From IMG/VR virus record IMGVR_UViG_3300025061_000148, positions 1 through 37,537 of that record: 37,537 nt of DNA. One strand, written 5' to 3'. Shown here one piece after another: positions 1,998-37,537 of the stretch (positions are counted from its first letter, which is position 1; each line of letters begins with the position of its first letter). This stretch comes from a virus. A program made the position numbers and the translations under genes. Under the pieces are notes generated by a model. The model ran no database searches. It was not told the DNA's origin and saw only the letters and a program-made list of their open reading frames with translations.

Positions 1998-3470
1998 TTA
2001 ACCCCATAGAGTGAGTGATATACGGTTTTTTGAGGCATCCACTAACCGCCATACAATCAGCACGTTACGGCCAGCGCTGTAGCCAAGCCGGGGCGTGACG
2101 ATGCGGATGGTTTGATTAACGTCCAGCGCGCCCGCGTCTTTAACGCGGGCGACGACGGTTAGCCGATCACGCCGGGGCGATAGCAGCGCCAGCACGTCGT
2201 TAGCGGTGGTTTGCGCTTTACTGCGGCTAGCGAGGTCGCTAGCCAGGGTGATAGCGTCCGCTAGGGGATGGCGCGCCAGCGTGGCGTTTGATACCGCGAC
2301 TGCGTCACGGTATTGACTCGCTAGCCGCGCGCGGCGGCTTTCCCCGACGCCGCCCGCAAGGTTTTCTTGCACCGTCTCGATGCGGTCGGCCTGCCACGTC
2401 ACGCGACCAATGGGCAGGCCGTTACTGCCCGCGCCTGCGGAATCGCGGTCAATCGTGATGATTTGATGGTCGTTAAGCGTTAGTACTGGCACGCCGGGCG
2501 GGGCGAGCAAATCGGCGTCTATCGTCTGCGTGCCGGTCAGTCGGTAATAGCCCGCGCATGATGCTACTAGCCGATCAAGCAGCGCGGCGGTGGTGGTTTC
2601 AGACGTGACCCACAACCGCACCCCGCCCCGGTTATTCAGCGCGCCCACGCTAGCAACGCTAACGCCCGCCTCGCCTGCTATCTGCTCGATCACGTCACCG
2701 GCATTAACAAGCGGTGCGTTAGCGTCGCAGGTAAGCTGCCCAGCCGGTGCTTGCCCGATGCGGATATACCCCTGGTAGCGCCGCCATTTGCCGCGCGGCG
2801 GCTCCCACTCGCTCCACTCCCCCGACGTGGGCGGCGTTCCCTCAAGCTCAGCGAGTGACGAATAATCGCCGTCGAATTCCAGCGCTACACCGCTGTCGTA
2901 AACCGCCGTCACGGTGCAATCCAAATCACTGATTTGATAGATCAGCTTTGAGCCGTTGACTAACACCGGCTGTGCGTTGCGCACCTGCCCGTATAGCCGG
3001 GGTTTTACGTTGCCGCCTATATCGTCGTCGGTGCCTTCCAGCCCATCGGGCGCAACGTTGGTGCCTGCAAACCGCGTTAGCGGGTGGGGTTGCTGCAGGA
3101 TCTCCACCGGGTCACGCAATTTGATAGACACAAGGCTGCTACCAAACGACACACGGGCAACGGTGCCTTCCAGCACCGTCGTTAAGACGCCCTCGTTTTC
3201 ATACTCAAGCACCGCGCGGCGGCCGTCCGTGGCGTAATCCACCAGCCAATCAAGCTTTCTATCGTTGTTGATTAGCGTGGTTTCGCCGTAGCCGCTGCGG
3301 TCTACCCGCAATAGCTCCCCCGCAAACAAACCAGCCCGGTATAGACCGGGCTGTTGGATGCGTTGCCACCATCGAATGGGTGCCGGGTCTACATACCCCG
3401 GCATGGCAAAGCGTAACGTTTTGGGGTTGCCTTGCGGGTCAAGGGCATCTATTGCTAATCGCCAGCTCAT
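1998..3470 (-). CDS. Distal tail/baseplate protein, 490 aa
   Basis: The first gene after the tape measure, overlapping its stop by 4 nt (ATGA). The N-terminus (MSWRLAIDALDPQGNPKTLR) and a GLYRAGLFAGELLRV segment are of a kind I associate with siphophage tail-tip proteins that follow the tape measure in Proteobacterial prophages. The C-terminal part (DVNQTIRIVTPRLGYSAGRNVLIVWRLVDASKNRISLTLWG) looks like the beta-rich end of a baseplate hub. A distal-tail or hub role is inferred from position and length. No enzymatic motif is visible, and the downstream tail-tip genes are not recognisable homologues of lambda J. Confidence 0.7.
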   Translation of the reverse strand: MSWRLAIDALDPQGNPKTLRFAMPGYVDPAPIRWWQRIQQPGLYRAGLFAGELLRVDRSGYGETTLINNDRKLDWLVDYATDGRRAVLEYENEGVLTTVLEGTVARVSFGSSLVSIKLRDPVEILQQPHPLTRFAGTNVAPDGLEGTDDDIGGNVKPRLYGQVRNAQPVLVNGSKLIYQISDLDCTVTAVYDSGVALEFDGDYSSLAELEGTPPTSGEWSEWEPPRGKWRRYQGYIRIGQAPAGQLTCDANAPLVNAGDVIEQIAGEAGVSVASVGALNNRGGVRLWVTSETTTAALLDRLVASCAGYYRLTGTQTIDADLLAPPGVPVLTLNDHQIITIDRDSAGAGSNGLPIGRVTWQADRIETVQENLAGGVGESRRARLASQYRDAVAVSNATLARHPLADAITLASDLASRSKAQTTANDVLALLSPRRDRLTVVARVKDAGALDVNQTIRIVTPRLGYSAGRNVLIVWRLVDASKNRISLTLWG

Positions 3471-6400
3471 CGCGCCCCCTGCAATCGTGCCGCCGTACCC
3501 ATTTCATCTAGCGCTGCATTGGCTTTCTGCAGCTCGCTAATTTGCTGTTTCGCGCCTTCTGCCTGCACATCGACGGATGCGCCGGTGTGCTGCTCGATGG
3601 CTTTAAGCAAGCGGGTAATCTCTTTGTTTTGCAGCGCAATTTGCCGCTGCATATCGCGTACAACGTCGTTTTGATCATTGCGATTTAGCAGCGGGAACGC
3701 GGCAATGTCAGGCATGGGGAGGTCGCGCGGGGCGGGCATTGACAGCCTGGGCGCTGACGCACCGCTGGTGGCTAGCGCGCGCAGAGCGTTAGCAGGGCCT
3801 GCAGGCACAACCATCTCGCCCTTGTGCAGCTCAGCCAAATAGCCATCAAAACCGATATTCCACGCGCCGCTTGCATGACTACCGTTAACGCCACCGACGC
3901 CCGCCGCTGCGTAGCGCGCGCCGATGCGCTCAGCCCACTTGTAGTGCTGCTCAGCGTATTTATGGCCGATACCGCTAGCAGACTCTTTGTGCTTGTACGT
4001 GAGCCAATGGCCAATCCCCTTTAATGCCGTGGGTGATTGATGATCAGCAAACGTAACGCGCATACCCTGTGAAGAGTTTTTAGCTGCATCCGTGTTGGCT
4101 TTTGTTCCTGCAGCCCCTGCCTTGATGGCCTCCAAGCGGCTAATCTGCCCATCGCCGTCGGTGTCTAGCTTTTGATAGATTTTGCGCAGCTCGGAATCTG
4201 ACGCCATGCCTCTAAATTGCTTGCCAAATTCGTCGTAATCAATCAGTCCGCTAGCGTCAAAATCAATGCTGTTAAACATCGGTCCTAACGACCCGGCGAT
4301 GCCATCCGCTAGCCCAGCCACGCGGGCGGCGGTGTTTTCCTCAGCGCTGATAACGCCGTCGCCGTTGATGTCTACCCGCTTGATTAGCCTGTCAATTTCG
4401 GAATCTGTCGCGATGGGTGACAGCGCGGCGCGCACTTGCTGGGCGGTTAGCGTCTTGGTGCGCAAATCCTGCATCTGATTACGCAGCACGTTTGTTAGCC
4501 GCGTGTCGCCGGGCATGGATTCGATAACAACGCTTTCGAGCTTATTAATCACGTCGTCGTTGTTTAGATCCATGCTGTTCATCATCGCGCGGATCTGGGC
4601 ATTAGTGGCCATGCCCTTTAGCCCAGACTGCAGCTCGCCAAACGTCAGGTTGTCGTCCAAGTTTTTATCGAGCATCGCGAACGATGATGACAGCGACGCA
4701 GCAACGCCCCCGGCAATGCCAGACACTCGTTTAGCTGTTAGCTCTTCGGCGGTGATAATGCCGTCGCCGTTAGCGTCTACCTCTTTGATTAACCTGTTAA
4801 TTTCGGCATCGGTGGCAATCGGGGAAAGCGCCTGTTTCACCTGAGCGCTTGTCAGCGTCTTGCTACCCAGCGCCTGCATTTGATTGCGCAGCACGTTGGT
4901 TAAGCGGGCATCGTTCGGCATGGATTCGATAACGACGCTTTCTAACTTATTGATAACGCCGTCGTTATTTAAATCCATGCTGTTCATCATGGCACGGATT
5001 TGGGCGTCTGTTGCCAGCCCGCCCAGCCCTTGCTTTAGCTCGCCAAACGTCAACAAGCCATCAACATTGGCATCTAGCGAATCAAACGACCCGGCGAGCG
5101 ACTGAGCCACGCCCGACGCCAGCCCGCCCAGCTTGGCGTTGGCCAACTCCTGTTGACTGATCATCCCGTCGCCGTTGGTATCAACAGCCGCGATCAGCGC
5201 GCTAATCTGCGCATCTGTGGCTTTATCACCCAACGCCCGTTTGATCTCGCTGAACGTCAACAGGCCGTCTAGGTTGCCGTCGATCTGATCAAAATTGCGC
5301 GATAGTGAATCAACCGCATTCCCAAAGCCGGTATCAAACGCGCCCGCCAACGTGACGGTCTGATCGCCAATAATCCCTTTAAATTCATCGGCAAGGAATT
5401 GCTCAGGGCTGAGCATTTCCGGCAGCTTTTCCAGCATGCCAGTTACGCGGTCAATCGTGCCGACGGTTTGCGCACCGCTGGCACTCCACCCTTTTTGAGC
5501 CTCGATAAAGCGGTCAGCGTACTGGGTAATGCTGCTCATTGCCGCGCGGTCGCCACTTGCCGCTTTGGCGTACTGCTCATCAAACGCGGCAGACGCGGCG
5601 GCGAGCTGATCACCCGGCGACGCTAGCCCCTTATCGGTGCTTTGCAGGCCGTCGATGTAGCTAGCAATGCCGGTGCCAAACGATGCGAGCTGTTCGCGCG
5701 CGCGCTGCCATGCGTTCGCCTCTTGCTCAATGGCTCGAATGCGCTCCTGCTGGGCACGCTCTGCCTCCCGTTGAGCCTCTTGCTCATCTTCAAGTGCCCA
5801 AATGCGTTGCTGTAGACCGCGATTGCTTGAGTCGAGCGCATCCAGGTCACGGCGACGTAGCTCGGCAGTATTCCCTTGTAGTGTCAGCAGTTGACGCTCT
5901 AGCTGCTCACGTTCGCGCAATGCGTCGGCTGTGCCACTAGCAGCATCGCCAGCTGCTTCGACAGCAGGCGTTAGCTCAGAGAACGAAGCGCTAAGTTGCA
6001 GTAGTTGAGCGTATGCCTGGCGTCCTGATTCGGTGCTCAGGTCCTGAGCCTCGACAAGAGCGCGGAAGCCTTCGCGAGTTTCGGGCAGTTGCAGCCCCAT
6101 ACCGCTCAGCGCGCCCGTTAGATCTTCCGTGAGATGCGCCGCACGCTCTGCTTCACTAAAGAAGTTTTGATAGTACGACTGCTGCAGTGCCGCCAGATTT
6201 TCAACGCCGCCAGCGAGTTGGGCAACGTCTTGAGCCGCTTCGTAGGCATAGCCGCCCGCGATATTGAACTGCAGCCCCAGCCGCTCCGAAGCACTGGTGA
6301 GAAGCGCATGCGCCTGCTGCGTGGTCTGCGCCTGAGCAATAATCTCCTCTGTGCTGCCGCTCAAGGTGCGAGCGAATGCGCCGAAGTCACCCGACATCGC

Positions 6401-9400
6401 GCCGAATGCGGCTTTTGTGCGATCTCCAAGTTGGTCAGCAATGCCCGCAGCATCCGACGATTTGAGCCGCATCTGCTGAATCGCGTGCGTCATCGCCTCA
6501 ACGTCGCCGGGAGCCAAAGCAGCGATCATGTCATCCGTGGCGGCGATGGTTTCTAAAAACTGGCGGGCGTTGTCGAACGAGCCGAAAGTTTCTTCTAAGC
6601 GGTTGGTGTTGCCACCGTTGAAGCCCACATTTCCAAACGCCCCGGTAGCCGTGACGCCGTGCTGAACGTCTTCAAAAATCGTGCTGGGGTCTTGGTAGGT
6701 CGTCATCAAATCAAACGACGGCCCACGCGATTTGCTGCCAAACAAGCCGCCGATGGCTTTAGTGATGCCGCCGCCCAACAGCGAATCGATAGCGAGGCCG
6801 CCCGCGATCCAGGGCATCGCGGTGCTAATACCGGATGCGATACTGCTAGCGAGGCCAGCAGAATTACCCAGCGCAGCGCCAGACGCCGCACTGCCCGCCC
6901 AGCCGCCGTAAGTAGCGCCACCGGCGACTTGGCCAGCGCTTGCTAATGCGGCAGACGATAGCCCGCCCTGCATCGCTAGCGAGGGGGCGGCGGTAGAGCC
7001 ACCAAAGCCCAACGCGCTACCAATGCCGCTTATGGCATCGCCCACGTAGGGCAGCTTTTTAGCGCCGCTGTATAGCGAGCTAATACCATTAAGATTGTAG
7101 CCTCCACCGCCACCACCAGCACCACCCGCGCCAGGTATTCCCAGCGCACCCCCCATCTGCTGCGTAAATTCCACAACGATAGGTTTCAGTGTGGCTTGAT
7201 ATGCAAGCTCGGCTAGTAAGCGCTTAAAGCCGTCTAGCAGTTGATCAGTAAAATCATCGAAGGAATCAAACGCGCCGGTAAAGGCATCCGCAAACGTTTC
7301 ATCTATGCGGTTGCTAGCCTCCTCCCACGCACGCGCCATTTCCTGGGCGGCGGGATCAGCATCTAGTGCCAGTTGCTGCATTTCATCGCGAATGGCGGCA
7401 ATCATGCGCGCATACTGAGCAGCATTCGCCGGGTCGTTGCGCCAGCGCTGGTTAACCTGCTCTAACGCTTCTTGCAGCTGCTGGGCTTTCTGATAGTGGC
7501 GGTCGTAAGTGCTTACCAGCGACTGCGTTTGCTTTTCGTACTCTTCGGCACCGGTGGCCGCGCGGCGGTACTGCTCAGCGTTCCAGCGCACCGCTTTGCC
7601 GTAGGCTTCTTCGCTGATAGTGCCGTCTGCCAGGGCTTTATCCAGCACGCCCAAACGTTCTATATAGTCGGCGTGGTCTTTCAGCAGCGGGTCCATCTCC
7701 TGCTGAATGCCGACCAGGGCTTTTGCTTGAGCCTCGGCTGACTGCTGGGCGGCTTGGGCTTGGCGTTGCGCGTTGCGCTCGGCTTCCTCGGCAGCGCGGC
7801 GCGCTTCGGCGGCGGCTTCCTGCTGGGCTTTGCGCTGGTCTTTCAGCGCTTCGTCTTGCACCGTCAGGAAAATGCTATAGCCGCGCATGATGTTGGTCAC
7901 ATCATCGCCCATGCCATCTAGGGCACGGTTAGCCGCGCCCATGGCTGAGCCACCGTCTCGGGTGGCGGCGATGCTTTCGCGTAGGCGGTCGTTGTACTTA
8001 GCCCACGCGTCTAGGGTGGTGGCTGAGGGTGCGCCGTTGTTGACGGCTTGGCCGGTGTTTTCGGCAGCGTCTGCCGTGGCGTTCATATCCGCTGTTAGCA
8101 CACGGATTCTGTCGTCCAGCTCGTCCGCGTTCACGGTGCCGTTGGAGAAGTCCCGCGCCAGCAGCTTGAGCTTGTCCAGCATGTCGGGGGGTATGTCCAT
8201 ATACCCTTGGGCCTCTTCCAGCACGTCGGCTAGGCGGCGGCCTCCCTCTTCCACCTTGTTGATTTCGCCCAACAGGCGGCGGTAATTCTCATATTGGGTT
8301 TCATCGCGCCCGCCAAAAATAGACGCCCCGCCCAACTTAGCGATCTCTTGGCGAATATCGCCCAGCGCGGCGCGGGCTTTCTCGGCCTCTTCCTCTTGCT
8401 GCCGCCCCCACTCGACCAACGCGGCCTGCTGCGCTTCCCGCGTCATTTCGCGGAAGCTCTCGATGGTTTGCTCTAACGGCTGGTCAAGATCCATAAGCGA
8501 CGCGCTTACTTCATCGGAGCTGTCGCGGAACAGGAAAAACGCGCTAGCCGCGAGTGTGGCCACGCCCAACGGGCCACCCAACGGGGCCATGGCCGCACGA
8601 CCTATACGCATTGCGCCCGCCAACGCTGTATGCGCGGTGGCGGCGGTATTGGCGGCAGCGGTTGACGCCGCATAAGCGGCGTTCGTGGCGGTAGCCGCAC
8701 GCCCGGCGCGCTCTTGGGCGGTGGCCAGCGCCTGCGCTGAAATAAGTGTTTGCTGTTGGGCAGCGTGCAACGCTTGCTGCTGGGCAGTGGCCTGGGCCAT
8801 TAGCCCCTGTTCGGTGCGGCGGATCTCTGCCAAACGGGTAAGCGACTGCTGCCGACCGGTGGCGGTAATTTGCGCCTGTAGGCGTTGGACTTCTAACGCC
8901 CGCTCAGCGGCCATGAGCTGTTGAGTGGTTTGGATCTCCCGCAACTTGCTAGCGGCTTCCACCTCGGCAGCCTGGGCGCGCTGGGCAGCAACGCGGGCGC
9001 TGTTCTGCGCGGCCACCTGCTCAGCTTCTGCCCGGCGGGCAGTCTCTAACGCTACCTGCCGCTCACGCTGAGCCACTACCGCCGCTTGGGCAGCGGCGGC
9101 GCGGTCGGCGCTGATCTTTTTCACCGCGGCGGCACCGCTGGCCGCCAGCGCGCCCACCAACCGGCCCGCCAGTACGCCGCTTAACAGCCCGGCCCCATCG
9201 GTGACTAACTCAACCACCTCGCCCATACCGCCCAGCCACTGGATCAGCTCTTGCGCGCCGTCAGATACAGCGATGAAGCTAGGTGCCCACTCAGCCGCTA
9301 CCGAGTTTGCAAAGGCGGTGCCGAGCGCGGTTAGCTCGTTGAGCTTTTGCGCCGCCTGCTCGATGCTGTCGATGTCGCTTTGAGGCAGGGCCACGCCGAG

Positions 9401-10036
9401 CTGATCGGCTAGGGAAATTTGATCCCGTAGCGCGGCGGCGTTGTTTTCCAGCAGCGGCAGCAGGCGGCTAGCGTCGTTAGCCAACGACTCCATGAAAAAG
9501 ATTTTTTCGCCCTGGGTGGCCACCCCATCGAGCGCTTCGCCAATAGCCAAGAGCTGCTGATCGGGCCGCATGCCCATGAGCGTATCGATATCGAGGTTCA
9601 GGCGCTCGAACAGGTCGGCAGCTTCGCCGCCGCCGGTAGCCACAAAATCACCAATCTTCTCGCTGGTGTCTTTGAAAATATCGCCCATCTTGCCCGCGCC
9701 AAGGTTGACGCTTTGGGCGGCAAACTCCCATTGCTGCAGGGTTTGCACAGTCACACCCACGGAACGGGCCAACGCGGCCTGCTCGGCCACGTTATGGGTT
9801 TGGGTCACGGCCATGGCCCCCATGGCGGCGGTGGTAGCGGCGCTTACCGTGGCCAGCCGCTGCGCGTGCGCGCTCACGCTCTCAAAGCTGGCCTTCATTT
9901 CTTCGCTTTGCCGCTGGGCGCGCTGCATTTCGCGGGTCATATCCGCGTTGGCTTGCTGCAGCTCACGGGTGGCTTTTACGCCGCTGGTACTGTCGCCTTT
10001 AATGACAAACTCAGTGGTGTATTGCTTTGACGACAT
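3467..10036 (-). CDS. Tail tape measure protein with EF-hand repeats
   Basis: At 2,189 aa this is by far the largest gene and sits just after the G/GT chaperones, the tape-measure position. It sets tail length and may enter the envelope during DNA ejection. Visible order: N-terminal helical region; Ala/Gln-rich coiled coil at about 310-460; hydrophobic Gly/Ala segment near 480-500; second coiled coil around 740-930; Gly-rich stretch near 970 (GAGGAGGGGGG); heptad-rich coils around 1400; then ten EF-hand-type calcium loops between about 1586 and 1969. Next comes the tape-measure C-terminal motif GFDGYLAELHKGEMVVPA near 2080. The EF-hand block is unusual for this family. ATG start on the minus strand; a hairpin terminator precedes the gene. 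Confidence 0.93.
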   Translation of the reverse strand: MSSKQYTTEFVIKGDSTSGVKATRELQQANADMTREMQRAQRQSEEMKASFESVSAHAQRLATVSAATTAAMGAMAVTQTHNVAEQAALARSVGVTVQTLQQWEFAAQSVNLGAGKMGDIFKDTSEKIGDFVATGGGEAADLFERLNLDIDTLMGMRPDQQLLAIGEALDGVATQGEKIFFMESLANDASRLLPLLENNAAALRDQISLADQLGVALPQSDIDSIEQAAQKLNELTALGTAFANSVAAEWAPSFIAVSDGAQELIQWLGGMGEVVELVTDGAGLLSGVLAGRLVGALAASGAAAVKKISADRAAAAQAAVVAQRERQVALETARRAEAEQVAAQNSARVAAQRAQAAEVEAASKLREIQTTQQLMAAERALEVQRLQAQITATGRQQSLTRLAEIRRTEQGLMAQATAQQQALHAAQQQTLISAQALATAQERAGRAATATNAAYAASTAAANTAATAHTALAGAMRIGRAAMAPLGGPLGVATLAASAFFLFRDSSDEVSASLMDLDQPLEQTIESFREMTREAQQAALVEWGRQQEEEAEKARAALGDIRQEIAKLGGASIFGGRDETQYENYRRLLGEINKVEEGGRRLADVLEEAQGYMDIPPDMLDKLKLLARDFSNGTVNADELDDRIRVLTADMNATADAAENTGQAVNNGAPSATTLDAWAKYNDRLRESIAATRDGGSAMGAANRALDGMGDDVTNIMRGYSIFLTVQDEALKDQRKAQQEAAAEARRAAEEAERNAQRQAQAAQQSAEAQAKALVGIQQEMDPLLKDHADYIERLGVLDKALADGTISEEAYGKAVRWNAEQYRRAATGAEEYEKQTQSLVSTYDRHYQKAQQLQEALEQVNQRWRNDPANAAQYARMIAAIRDEMQQLALDADPAAQEMARAWEEASNRIDETFADAFTGAFDSFDDFTDQLLDGFKRLLAELAYQATLKPIVVEFTQQMGGALGIPGAGGAGGGGGGYNLNGISSLYSGAKKLPYVGDAISGIGSALGFGGSTAAPSLAMQGGLSSAALASAGQVAGGATYGGWAGSAASGAALGNSAGLASSIASGISTAMPWIAGGLAIDSLLGGGITKAIGGLFGSKSRGPSFDLMTTYQDPSTIFEDVQHGVTATGAFGNVGFNGGNTNRLEETFGSFDNARQFLETIAATDDMIAALAPGDVEAMTHAIQQMRLKSSDAAGIADQLGDRTKAAFGAMSGDFGAFARTLSGSTEEIIAQAQTTQQAHALLTSASERLGLQFNIAGGYAYEAAQDVAQLAGGVENLAALQQSYYQNFFSEAERAAHLTEDLTGALSGMGLQLPETREGFRALVEAQDLSTESGRQAYAQLLQLSASFSELTPAVEAAGDAASGTADALREREQLERQLLTLQGNTAELRRRDLDALDSSNRGLQQRIWALEDEQEAQREAERAQQERIRAIEQEANAWQRAREQLASFGTGIASYIDGLQSTDKGLASPGDQLAAASAAFDEQYAKAASGDRAAMSSITQYADRFIEAQKGWSASGAQTVGTIDRVTGMLEKLPEMLSPEQFLADEFKGIIGDQTVTLAGAFDTGFGNAVDSLSRNFDQIDGNLDGLLTFSEIKRALGDKATDAQISALIAAVDTNGDGMISQQELANAKLGGLASGVAQSLAGSFDSLDANVDGLLTFGELKQGLGGLATDAQIRAMMNSMDLNNDGVINKLESVVIESMPNDARLTNVLRNQMQALGSKTLTSAQVKQALSPIATDAEINRLIKEVDANGDGIITAEELTAKRVSGIAGGVAASLSSSFAMLDKNLDDNLTFGELQSGLKGMATNAQIRAMMNSMDLNNDDVINKLESVVIESMPGDTRLTNVLRNQMQDLRTKTLTAQQVRAALSPIATDSEIDRLIKRVDINGDGVISAEENTAARVAGLADGIAGSLGPMFNSIDFDASGLIDYDEFGKQFRGMASDSELRKIYQKLDTDGDGQISRLEAIKAGAAGTKANTDAAKNSSQGMRVTFADHQSPTALKGIGHWLTYKHKESASGIGHKYAEQHYKWAERIGARYAAAGVGGVNGSHASGAWNIGFDGYLAELHKGEMVVPAGPANALRALATSGASAPRLSMPAPRDLPMPDIAAFPLLNRNDQNDVVRDMQRQIALQNKEITRLLKAIEQHTGASVDVQAEGAKQQISELQKANAALDEMGTAARLQGAR

Positions 10037-22543: not shown

Positions 22544-23122
22544 TCACGCCGCCCGCGCCGCGTCCGCGATCACGCCTGCTACTGCCTCAACCAGCGCGTC
22601 GTAATACTGTTTGAACTGATACAGGTCGTTAGCGTTGGAAAGGAAAAACAACTCAAAGATGATGCCGCCACCGCCAGACACGAAGGCCAAGCGCTCGTGA
22701 TACCCAGCGTTCTCAGGCTTAGCCCCACGGTTGGGAATGCCTAACAAACCAGCAGTTACACGGCAGAGCTCAGCGCCCAGGGGCTTGTTATGAGCGCGGG
22801 ATAACGTCTCAACACCCGTTGCACCAGGGCCACCGCCATTTGTATGAAACTCAATGGCAATATCACAGCCTTGAGCAATTCGAACAGCCTGGCGCAACGG
22901 CAGGTTTTCGCCGGGTTCACCGTCTAACACATGGCGTATACCCAGGCTGGCTAACCGCACGCTAACGTCATCACGGAACAGCTGAACGATATCGGCCTCT
23001 TTATAGCCATTAGCCACGATCCCCGGCACCGTATCGCTATGCCCTGCTGAGAGCATCACCGTGTTGCGCTGGGGTGGCCGCTGGGGCACTGCTTTGACGT
23101 GATCAATCCACCGCATGCCCAT
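22544..23122 (-). CDS. Endolysin, N-acetylmuramoyl-L-alanine amidase (Amidase_3)
   Basis: 192 aa, a single catalytic domain without a cell-wall-binding module. Zinc ligands and catalytic residues of Amidase_3 are visible: His28 (VMLSAGHSD), Glu42 (GYKEAD), His93 (IEFHTNGG) and Glu157 (IIFELFFLSNANDL). It cleaves the bond between MurNAc and L-Ala. There is no signal peptide, so it needs the holin that follows. AGGAGG lies 6 nt before the ATG at 23122. It is the first gene of the late operon, downstream of the Q-like gene and a terminator. Confidence 0.9.
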   Translation of the reverse strand: MGMRWIDHVKAVPQRPPQRNTVMLSAGHSDTVPGIVANGYKEADIVQLFRDDVSVRLASLGIRHVLDGEPGENLPLRQAVRIAQGCDIAIEFHTNGGGPGATGVETLSRAHNKPLGAELCRVTAGLLGIPNRGAKPENAGYHERLAFVSGGGGIIFELFFLSNANDLYQFKQYYDALVEAVAGVIADAARAA

Positions 23123-29093: not shown

Positions 29094-29771
29094 ATGGACA
29101 TATTCACAAAGCGATACCAAAACCTGCGCGCCGTCATGGACGCAAGGAAAATGAAACTAAAAGACTTGGCCAGTGCGATTGATCGTAGTGAAAGCCAGTC
29201 CAGCAGCTTTGCGGGTGCAAATCCTCAAAAAAATATCGGCGAGAGAATGGCCCGCCGCATTGAAGAAAGCTTATCACTAGCCCCCTACTCGCTTGACCAA
29301 GACGACTTCCAAGTATCAGAACAATCAAACGTATACACCATCACTCGCCATACCGATGCGGCAGTTATAGCCGACATAACGCACATGCTGCCGGTCGTGG
29401 GCATGGCCAGCGCTGGGAGACTTATGGAGAGTGTTGAAGACGCAGAAATTGAGGAGTACGTACCAGCACCAGGTCCATGTGGTAAAAACTCATTTGTGCT
29501 GCGCCTAGATGGCGTCAGCATGCTGCCCGACTTCAAACCAGGCGACAGGATTGTCATTGATCCCGACGCAGAATGGGTAAGCGGCGACTTCGTTTACGCC
29601 TGCAGAACCGATGCTGGCTGCTCTGATGTGGGCACCTTTAAAAAGATCATCTTCGAAGAAGGCGAATATTATTTATGCGCTGCCAACGAAGACTGGCATC
29701 CGCGATACACCAAGCTGGAGAAAGGGTGGAAGGTAGTCGGCAAAGCCCGATATCAAGTTAAGCTCCTATAA
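29094..29771 (+). CDS. CI-like repressor with S24/LexA autocleavage domain
   Basis: 225 aa. The N-terminal helix-turn-helix (~residues 10-60, LRAVMDARKMKLKDLASAIDRSESQSSSF) binds the CACCT/AGGTG operators. The C-terminal peptidase domain has the cleavage site Ala107-Gly108 (GMASAGRL), nucleophile Ser142 (LDGVSMLPDFKPGD) and probable general base Lys183 (GTFKKII). It maintains lysogeny and should self-cleave with RecA during SOS, so this prophage is expected to be DNA-damage inducible. It is divergent from cro and probably leaderless. Confidence 0.93.
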   Translation: MDIFTKRYQNLRAVMDARKMKLKDLASAIDRSESQSSSFAGANPQKNIGERMARRIEESLSLAPYSLDQDDFQVSEQSNVYTITRHTDAAVIADITHMLPVVGMASAGRLMESVEDAEIEEYVPAPGPCGKNSFVLRLDGVSMLPDFKPGDRIVIDPDAEWVSGDFVYACRTDAGCSDVGTFKKIIFEEGEYYLCAANEDWHPRYTKLEKGWKVVGKARYQVKLL

Positions 29772-36229: not shown

Positions 36230-36509
36230 TCACGTCACGATAGAGCGCTTTGCCGAGCTCACCGGCTACAGCGAGTTTGCCATTAGATCAAAGATCAAGC
36301 GTGGTGATTGGCGACTAGGTGATCAGTTCTTTAAAGCGCCGGACGGTCGGATATTAATGTCATTAGAAGGGTATGCACGATGGGTAACAAAGGGAGCAGT
36401 TACGAAGGGGTCCGGATCGCTTCGACCAGCAGTATCGAAATCGACTTCTACTACCAGGGCACCCGCTGCCGCGAACGGCTCAAGCTCCAGCCCAGCCCCG
36501 CTAACCTGA
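36216..36509 (+). CDS. Excisionase (Xis-like)
   Basis: 97 aa from the ATG at 36216, preceded by a full AGGAGG 5 nt upstream. The N-terminal ~60 residues (VTIERFAELTGYSEFAIRSKIKRGDWRLGDQFFKAPDGRILMSLEGYARWV) are a winged-helix excisionase of the type paired with DUF3596-containing integrases. It directs the integrase toward excision. The C-terminus is a Ser/Thr/Ala-rich tail, encoded where the gene overlaps the integrase by 130 nt. Such overlap fixes the ratio of the two proteins. Confidence 0.85.
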   Translation: MLPIDHVTIERFAELTGYSEFAIRSKIKRGDWRLGDQFFKAPDGRILMSLEGYARWVTKGAVTKGSGSLRPAVSKSTSTTRAPAAANGSSSSPAPLT

Positions 36510-37537
36510 AAAAAGCGGCGCAACATCGCGCCGCTGTAATTTCATCGATCGACACCGGCACGTTTGATTACCAAATCACTTTCCCCCGCAGTAAGAACGC
36601 CCGCAAGTTCATGCGCCAAGATCGGCTAGACAATTACCTGCGGCAGTGGCTAAACGCTAAGCGCCCTAGCTTGAAAGCGTCCACGATCAAAACCTATGAC
36701 ACCATCATCGAGCGGCTACTGATACCTGAGATGGGGCATTTGCTGCTGGCAGAGGTTACGCGGCCGCTGGTACGTAACTGGCTAGCGTCACTCTCCTGCG
36801 GCAACAAACGCCTCAGCAACATTCTTATGGTACTGCGTTCGGCACTCAGTGATGCCATGCATGATGAGCTGCTCGATACCAACCCTTTGCAGGGCTGGCA
36901 CTACCGGTTAAAAGAAGCACCAGGCCCCAAGAAAGGGCCAGACCCATTCACGCGTGAAGAACAGGAGGCGATCCTCTCGGCCACACGCCCCGAGGTGCGA
37001 CCGCTGTTTCAGTTTGCGTTCTGGACTGGCTTGCGCCCTAGCGAATATATCGCCCTGGAGTGGGGTGACATCGATTGGCACCGCATGGAAATCATCGTAA
37101 ACAAATCCATCACCACCGCTGCCAAGGGAGAGGCAGAAGATACGAAGACCTCAGCAGGCAGGCGAACGGTCGCGCTGTTACCGCCTGCGGCCGAGGCGTT
37201 AAAGCAGCAAAAGAAATACACGATGCTCCACCCCAGCGGACGCATCTTCCTGTGGCCACGTAGCCAGAAGGTGTTTAGCGGTGATAGCGACATACGCGAA
37301 AAGCTCTGGCGCCCCGCCGTGATACGTTCCGGCGTTCGGTACCGTACGCTCTATCAAACGCGGCACACTTTCGGCTCAATGATGCTGTCAGCAGGAGAAC
37401 CCTTAGCATGGGTTAGCAAACAAATGGGGCACCGTGATGTAGTATTCACCGCCAGGACATACGCGCAGTGGATACCGAACACGTCACCAGAGCTGGGATT
37501 GAGAGCAGTCGAGATGTTTGGGGGTAGTCAGCTTTAA
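36380..37537 (+). CDS. int: Tyrosine integrase
   Basis: 385 aa, complete; its TAA is the last codon of the window. Residues ~1-65 are the arm-binding domain (DUF3596 type, EGVRIASTSSIEIDFYYQGTRCRERLKL), ~80-170 the SAM-like core-binding domain, ~185-365 the catalytic domain. Catalytic residues: Arg219 (TGLRPSE), Lys256 (DTKTSAGRR), Arg328 (YQTRHTF, with Tyr325 at the usual His position, common in this branch), His351 (GHRD) and nucleophile Tyr361 (TARTYAQW). It inserts and, with Xis, excises the prophage. The attachment site should lie just beyond the window. Confidence 0.95.
   Translation: MGNKGSSYEGVRIASTSSIEIDFYYQGTRCRERLKLQPSPANLKKAAQHRAAVISSIDTGTFDYQITFPRSKNARKFMRQDRLDNYLRQWLNAKRPSLKASTIKTYDTIIERLLIPEMGHLLLAEVTRPLVRNWLASLSCGNKRLSNILMVLRSALSDAMHDELLDTNPLQGWHYRLKEAPGPKKGPDPFTREEQEAILSATRPEVRPLFQFAFWTGLRPSEYIALEWGDIDWHRMEIIVNKSITTAAKGEAEDTKTSAGRRTVALLPPAAEALKQQKKYTMLHPSGRIFLWPRSQKVFSGDSDIREKLWRPAVIRSGVRYRTLYQTRHTFGSMMLSAGEPLAWVSKQMGHRDVVFTARTYAQWIPNTSPELGLRAVEMFGGSQL

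Follow-up and report, generated by a model that had tools for sequence, protein, structure and literature searches.

A temperate relative of Halomonas prophages has an exchangeable EF-hand cassette in its tape measure protein

In phages JBD30 and T5 the C-terminus of the tape measure protein (TMP) is located at the tail tip. In JBD30 the tail tube is filled by a rod ~20 Å across, believed to be a trimer of the TMP, and of that TMP no more than the final 33 residues, in the baseplate, are resolved. For T5 it has been proposed that a C-terminal TMP piece with a muralytic domain ends up in the periplasm on expulsion and may have to refold there; HK97 injection is reported to require FkpA, a chaperone of the periplasm, together with a protein of the inner membrane. 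Within TMPs, 11-residue repeats vary in number by duplication and loss (Belcaid et al. 2011). RTX proteins undergo calcium-driven folding upon exit, i.e., on secretion. When the virion proteins of TP-84 were checked for EF hands none was found; the open-access literature yielded no account of a tape measure protein with EF hands, and among the phage papers examined that name both an EF hand and a tape measure, none describes an EF-hand TMP.

The DNA considered here, the window, is the whole 37,537-nucleotide stretch of IMG/VR record IMGVR_UViG_3300025061_000148. It is from a temperate phage, with an integrase (36380-37537) and an S24-type repressor (29094-29771), and that phage is related to prophages of salt-loving Halomonas. 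Its protein of 2189 aa encoded at 3467-10036 on the minus strand is, as a first-pass annotation made from the letters had it, a TMP: 12 PHROGs tape measure families match (best 1.6e-47), and its nearest PDB relative, at 2e-12 over residues 402-802, is the tape measure protein 8rk3, presumably that of phage JBD30. Its position agrees, this being a very long gene of the tail operon upstream of the tip genes; tail genes (phrog_680, phrog_290) precede it and tail-region genes come after, the next encoding 490 aa (phrog_8917; 1998..3470, minus strand). The record starts within the tail tip region (1-1994), with the frame 1-1125 open at the window start and further tip genes missing. At 22544-23122, on the minus strand and upstream of the terminase, is an N-acetylmuramoyl-L-alanine amidase (Amidase_3) that probably serves in lysis.

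The ten canonical EF-hand loops claimed for this protein in the first-pass annotation are there, each exactly where it had been placed, and together they cover 4130-5281 of the minus strand. Numbered by hand, and found by loop pattern, they are loop 1 at residue 1586 (DGNLDGLLTFSE; 5246..5281), loop 2 at 1619 (DTNGDGMISQQE; 5147..5182), loop 3 at 1655 (DANVDGLLTFGE; 5039..5074), loop 4 at 1688 (DLNNDGVINKLE; 4940..4975), loop 6 at 1754 (DANGDGIITAEE; 4742..4777), loop 7 at 1790 (DKNLDDNLTFGE; 4634..4669), loop 8 at 1823 (DLNNDDVINKLE; 4535..4570), loop 10 at 1889 (DINGDGVISAEE; 4337..4372), loop 11 at 1925 (DFDASGLIDYDE; 4229..4264) and loop 12 at 1958 (DTDGDGQISRLE; 4130..4165), all on the minus strand. 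The spacing is 33, 36 or 66 residues, and loops 7 and 8 do have Asp in place of Gly at position 6, as claimed; all ten have the 12 residues of an EF-hand loop, with D1, D/N/S3, D/N/S5, usually G6, a hydrophobic residue at 8 and E12. The Pfam search that had been proposed as a check gives EF-hand_7 at 2.1e-41, EF-hand_1 at 7e-30 and EF-hand_5 at 2.3e-24, all exceeding the curated cut-offs. Could such loops have arisen by chance? The protein has 8 instances of the strict pattern D.[DNS].[DNS]G.[ILV]...E, versus 0.005 expected from whole-protein shuffles and 0.0005 from block shuffles, which rules that out. A Dockerin_1 match (1.8e-7) reflects shared EF-type loops, and a dockerin is ruled out as the EF-hand pair models score far higher. 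The Pfam scan matched no enzyme family in the TMP, no peptidoglycan hydrolase motif in the cassette, which does not class with the T5-type enzyme domain, and no RTX family (glycine-aspartate nonapeptide repeats) in the TMP, which does not class with RTX proteins.

Two extra hands, near residues 1721 and 1856, remain in register and have the predicted fold, but their ligands are gone. Degenerate hand 5 (residue 1721, QALGSKTLTSAQ; 4841..4876, minus strand), without the calcium ligand set, is in 33-residue register with its neighbours and is helix-loop-strand-helix in the model; degenerate hand 9 (residue 1856; 4436..4471, minus strand) is its 135-aa repeat. The total is 12 hands, 10 canonical and 2 degenerate, in six pairs at residues ~1575 to 1978, and the cassette that holds them spans residues 1548-1978 (4103..5395, minus strand). 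Before it, by alignment, is a conserved segment, residues 1426-1547 (5396..5761, minus strand), common to TMPs with either of two cassette types, and beyond it is the C-terminal part of the TMP, residues 1979-2189 (3470..4102, minus strand). From an input of nine sequences, window and relatives, AlphaFold2 gives a model (438 aa; mean pLDDT 78.5, pTM 0.68, both ends weakest) of twelve paired hands, with 27-residue helices joining some pairs (model residues 81-107, 216-242, 351-377). Foldseek with this model returns multi-EF-hand proteins and many calmodulins, and the helix-loop-helix pairing of the EF-hand superfamily is thus present in prediction. Comparison of the repeats reveals that part of the six-pair block arose by tandem duplication of 405 nt encoding four hands (135 aa): unit A (residues 1640-1774; 4715..5119, minus strand) and unit B (residues 1775-1909; 4310..4714, minus strand) are only 71-73% identical in DNA, which is why TRF finds no short-period tandem repeats in the block. 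Between the two, pS is 0.62 and pN 0.19, and after correction dS is ~1.30 and dN ~0.22; as dN/dS is then ~0.17, both units have been kept under purifying selection.

Across the relatives surveyed the full ligand set (Asp1, Asp/Asn/Ser3, Asp/Asn/Ser5, Glu12) is present in 166 of 171 loops. Among distinct hands (n=163) Asp1 is in all and Glu12 in 159, while non-ligand positions vary, and loop entropy is 0.0 bits at position 1, 0.17 at position 12 and ~3 bits at positions 2, 10 and 11, though such ligand conservation is somewhat inflated, the loops having been collected by means of an EF profile plus a permissive pattern. Ligand conservation across relatives is indirect evidence, and by it the cassette hands very likely bind calcium. 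That the repeats are decaying is ruled out for the canonical hands by this conservation and the dN/dS of 0.17; some relatives (L014, L031) did lose hands. In the TMPs of these two, single EF hands are swapped for unrelated residues (DVNGRRIWSRQGATNSR in L031; NMSSRVGETQISWLKWQDGKLRAINSESRYTNYRLKG in L014), perhaps through local frameshifts or insertions.

What the slot contains is not fixed. The TMPs of the window and of L033 (IMGVR_UViG_2841687456_000004) share 83% DNA identity across the 404 nt that run up to residue 1547, and 81% across 443 nt from residue 1968, and between these matching flanks the window has its EF array and L033 has 27-residue helical repeats; as the cassettes differ between flanks so alike, the slot has been exchanged by recombination. 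On the tree built from the upstream segment, the type of cassette switches ~5 times, and well supported branches force at least 3 of these switches. EF copy number also varies among close relatives, with 3 loops in L014 versus 11 in L091. The 27-residue array (DRRLALxSxNRYxxxxDYxxx type) fills the slot in L033, L021, L017, L027, L040, L047, L052, L054, L055 and L102. It is modelled as stacked helices (pLDDT 79.8, pTM 0.77), has no match in Pfam, PHROGs or deposited phages and, compared with solved folds, none below E 0.001, the best matches being designed helical repeats. Net charge per 100 residues is -7.9 in EF cassettes, -4.9 in N-terminal parts and -3.3 in helical cassettes. In L104 (Halomonadaceae genome G258), with a TMP of the same family, the slot is reduced to a ~40-residue stub that has neither EF hands nor helical repeats.

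How widely is the EF cassette distributed? The survey markers lay outside the EF block, and were the next tail gene and a 120-aa segment just upstream of the block. With duplicates removed, 48 distinct TMPs share the 120-aa segment, 37 with EF hands, 10 with the helical array and 1 with the stub, and in 0 of 48 do both types occur together; the EF cassette is a family trait of these TMPs. Among deposited phages, EF hands of this kind are in just 1 of 50,697 records, that of EBPR siphovirus 2, which has one pair in the same slot. The remark in the first-pass annotation that a calcium-binding module is unusual in a tape measure thus holds for deposited phages and fails within this prophage family. 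Most TMPs of this kind sit in Halomonadaceae prophages, the named hosts being Halomonas, Vreelandella and Cobetia. Of 275 genomes in the family sample (Halomonadaceae) 28 have the 120-aa segment (22 strong, 6 weak), as does 1 of 369 in an even class sample, the sole match being the query genome, and 3 of 398 in a phylum sample, only one of them new and that one weak. The EF-bearing TMPs (n=37) have 2-13 canonical loops each, and in the surveyed TMPs the cassettes end 200 to 416 residues short of the C-terminus. The largest, of 712 residues and 13 canonical loops, are in L092 and L093 (Halomonadaceae genomes G052, G056) and include a second repeat unit built on IKWTRNSQLT; the TMPs of L028 and L128 have, further upstream and by eye only, extra DUF4214-like repeats (LGRxxxxEGLxYWxxxI..G). 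A single EF block used as query against viral contigs gave no match; an alignment of EF blocks gave 34 loci, overlapping partly with the contigs already found, and all of these EF matches are inside long open frames. The four that were checked (L120, L133, L137, L138) are TMPs by PHROGs, and their bodies match different TMP families. One of them, L120 (IMGVR_UViG_3300037524_000354), belongs to another TMP family, is without the 120-aa segment and has at least 6 EF hands near its C-terminus. As it does not have the shared segment, EF arrays exist in more than one kind of TMP, and L120 is a second, perhaps independent, occurrence.

What might calcium-binding hands do in a protein that travels in a phage tail? 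From what we observe, namely real hands, kept ligands, variable copy number and exchange with another helical repeat, we infer the steps that follow, and we hold tentatively, as the likeliest mechanism though short of thinking it probable, that the hands would be calcium-free and unfolded in the calcium-poor cytoplasm and tail tube and would fold on periplasmic calcium at ejection, ratcheting or anchoring the TMP. In the producing cell, with its sub-micromolar free calcium, the hands would be calcium-free and poorly folded, and in that state would allow the TMP to pack as an extended helical rod inside the tail tube. On infection the TMP would exit the opened tip C-terminus first, and the hands, on reaching millimolar periplasmic calcium, would fold into a string of calmodulin-like lobes that, unable to slip back into the tube, could pull out or hold the remaining TMP during formation of the DNA conduit. 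The arrays of 27-residue helices would serve the same mechanical purpose, folding independently of calcium. A wider proposal, that halophile phages use an exchangeable calcium-folding module of the TMP as a mechanical ratchet, with the calcium-independent helical array as an alternative part, is possible and somewhat more doubtful.

The bore of a tail tube is roughly 4 nm, and three folded EF lobes (each 2.2-2.5 nm wide) side by side would by estimate need ~4.7 nm, so that folded hands in register inside the tube are unlikely; it is for this reason that the hands are taken to be unfolded or extended in the tail and to fold with periplasmic calcium. The ~20 Å rod of JBD30, too narrow for three EF lobes abreast, argues the same way. 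Folding after ejection also fits the C-termini of the T5 and JBD30 proteins. The initial suggestion had been that the ejected protein could fold or lock on meeting calcium, which would then act as a trigger; the EF hands in the TMP are genuine and the folding part of it fits, and the trigger part is unsupported. Weighing against folding at ejection, ten relatives have no calcium ligands in the slot, so that calcium is not generally required; the hands might sit folded in the tip; and calcium in the external medium might already occupy them ahead of infection, should the tube let it through.

Might the cassette be no more than a tandem run of helices that makes the TMP longer, and the tail with it, calcium binding being incidental? 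Tandem duplication and loss are known to change TMP length (Belcaid et al.), and the EF and 27-residue cassettes are both helical repeats of variable number, but few positions are as conserved as the calcium ligands, for which a mere spacer would have no need, and we consider this quite unlikely. Compensation in length between the cassette and the remainder of the TMP is absent (r = -0.05, n = 37), and the TMP minus its cassette has a CV of 6.2% versus 9.8% for the total. These data fit a cassette that is outside the length rule, without proving that it is. Lack of a trade-off is what a cassette with more to it than a share in a ruler of fixed length should give, and on that account favours folding at ejection, though it is also compatible with tail lengths that vary freely. 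Calcium often stabilises phage virions, and a cassette of EF lobes prefolded at or near the tip of the mature tail, where calcium merely stabilises the virion, would suit both the modelling of the EF pairs as compact lobes and the location of the TMP C-terminus at the tip. Such an arrangement is unlikely, as the tip would have to enclose a large cavity to take up to 712 cassette residues from each of three chains, as the JBD30 tip resolves the last 33 residues only, and as ten relatives manage without calcium sites.

Repeated swapping of the EF and 27-residue arrays among close relatives would also suit a cassette that binds some host protein of the periplasm or inner membrane, or that defences read, and whose exchange brings a change of partner. 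Both host-factor use and SNIPE sensitivity are known to be determined by TMPs, host factors being PtsG and FkpA for HK97 and ManYZ for lambda; however, copy number differs between near-identical phages, which is odd for a specific interface, and the lambda and Bas14 determinants are nearer the N-terminus, so that this explanation, too, is improbable. The one offered in the first-pass annotation, that binding of external or periplasmic calcium starts DNA ejection or channel formation, has in its favour that there are genuine calcium sites in an ejected protein. Calcium is, though, always present in the medium of halophilic hosts. A cassette without calcium ligands can replace the EF cassette, as it does in ten near relatives with intact TMP genes, L104 has neither cassette, and in T5 it is receptor binding that sets off opening of the tip; a trigger role is thus unsupported, and we give it hardly any credence.

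The C-terminal part of the TMP is, then, a socket for exchangeable modules. The EF cassette offers a chemical handle, by way of calcium, EGTA and ligand mutants, on one part of a TMP, for study of TMP exit and of the DNA path across the periplasm, and near relatives whose slot holds the other cassette provide ready-made controls. If folding on periplasmic calcium does ratchet the TMP outwards, the module does mechanical work in genome delivery.

How does this protein stand beside those already described? It is like the siphophage TMPs (lambda H, HK97, JBD30 gp46, T5 pb2) in its PHROGs families, in gene order before the tip genes and in its relation to 8rk3, and differs in that no EF hands are described for them in the papers compared, the JBD30 text making no mention of calcium. 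The metallopeptidase domain of T5 pb2 is, as is the cassette, a separate C-terminal TMP domain, near the coil held in the tip, and is thought to act in the periplasm, but pb2 carries an enzyme where the window TMP carries a predicted calcium-binding array without an enzymatic family match. Closest is gp77 of EBPR siphovirus 2 (JF412297), a TMP with the same pre-cassette segment and an EF pair in the slot, though one pair versus six in the window, and annotated only as "similar to tail protein". Calmodulin-type proteins share the paired hands, some joined by long helices, and many calmodulins are among the sequence and fold matches; the window differs in having twelve hands within a virion protein, two of them without ligands. 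With the RTX repeats of type I secretion the proposed likeness is in working, calcium repeats being unfolded inside and folded outside, whereas those are beta-roll nonapeptides that leave via a secretion system and these are EF hands that would leave via a phage tail. The repeats of Belcaid et al. (2011) likewise vary by duplication and loss, but there the unit is of 11 residues and serves as a ruler, versus 33/36-residue hands and 135-residue units here. What is new is a tape measure protein of a known kind with an exchangeable cassette that very likely binds calcium.
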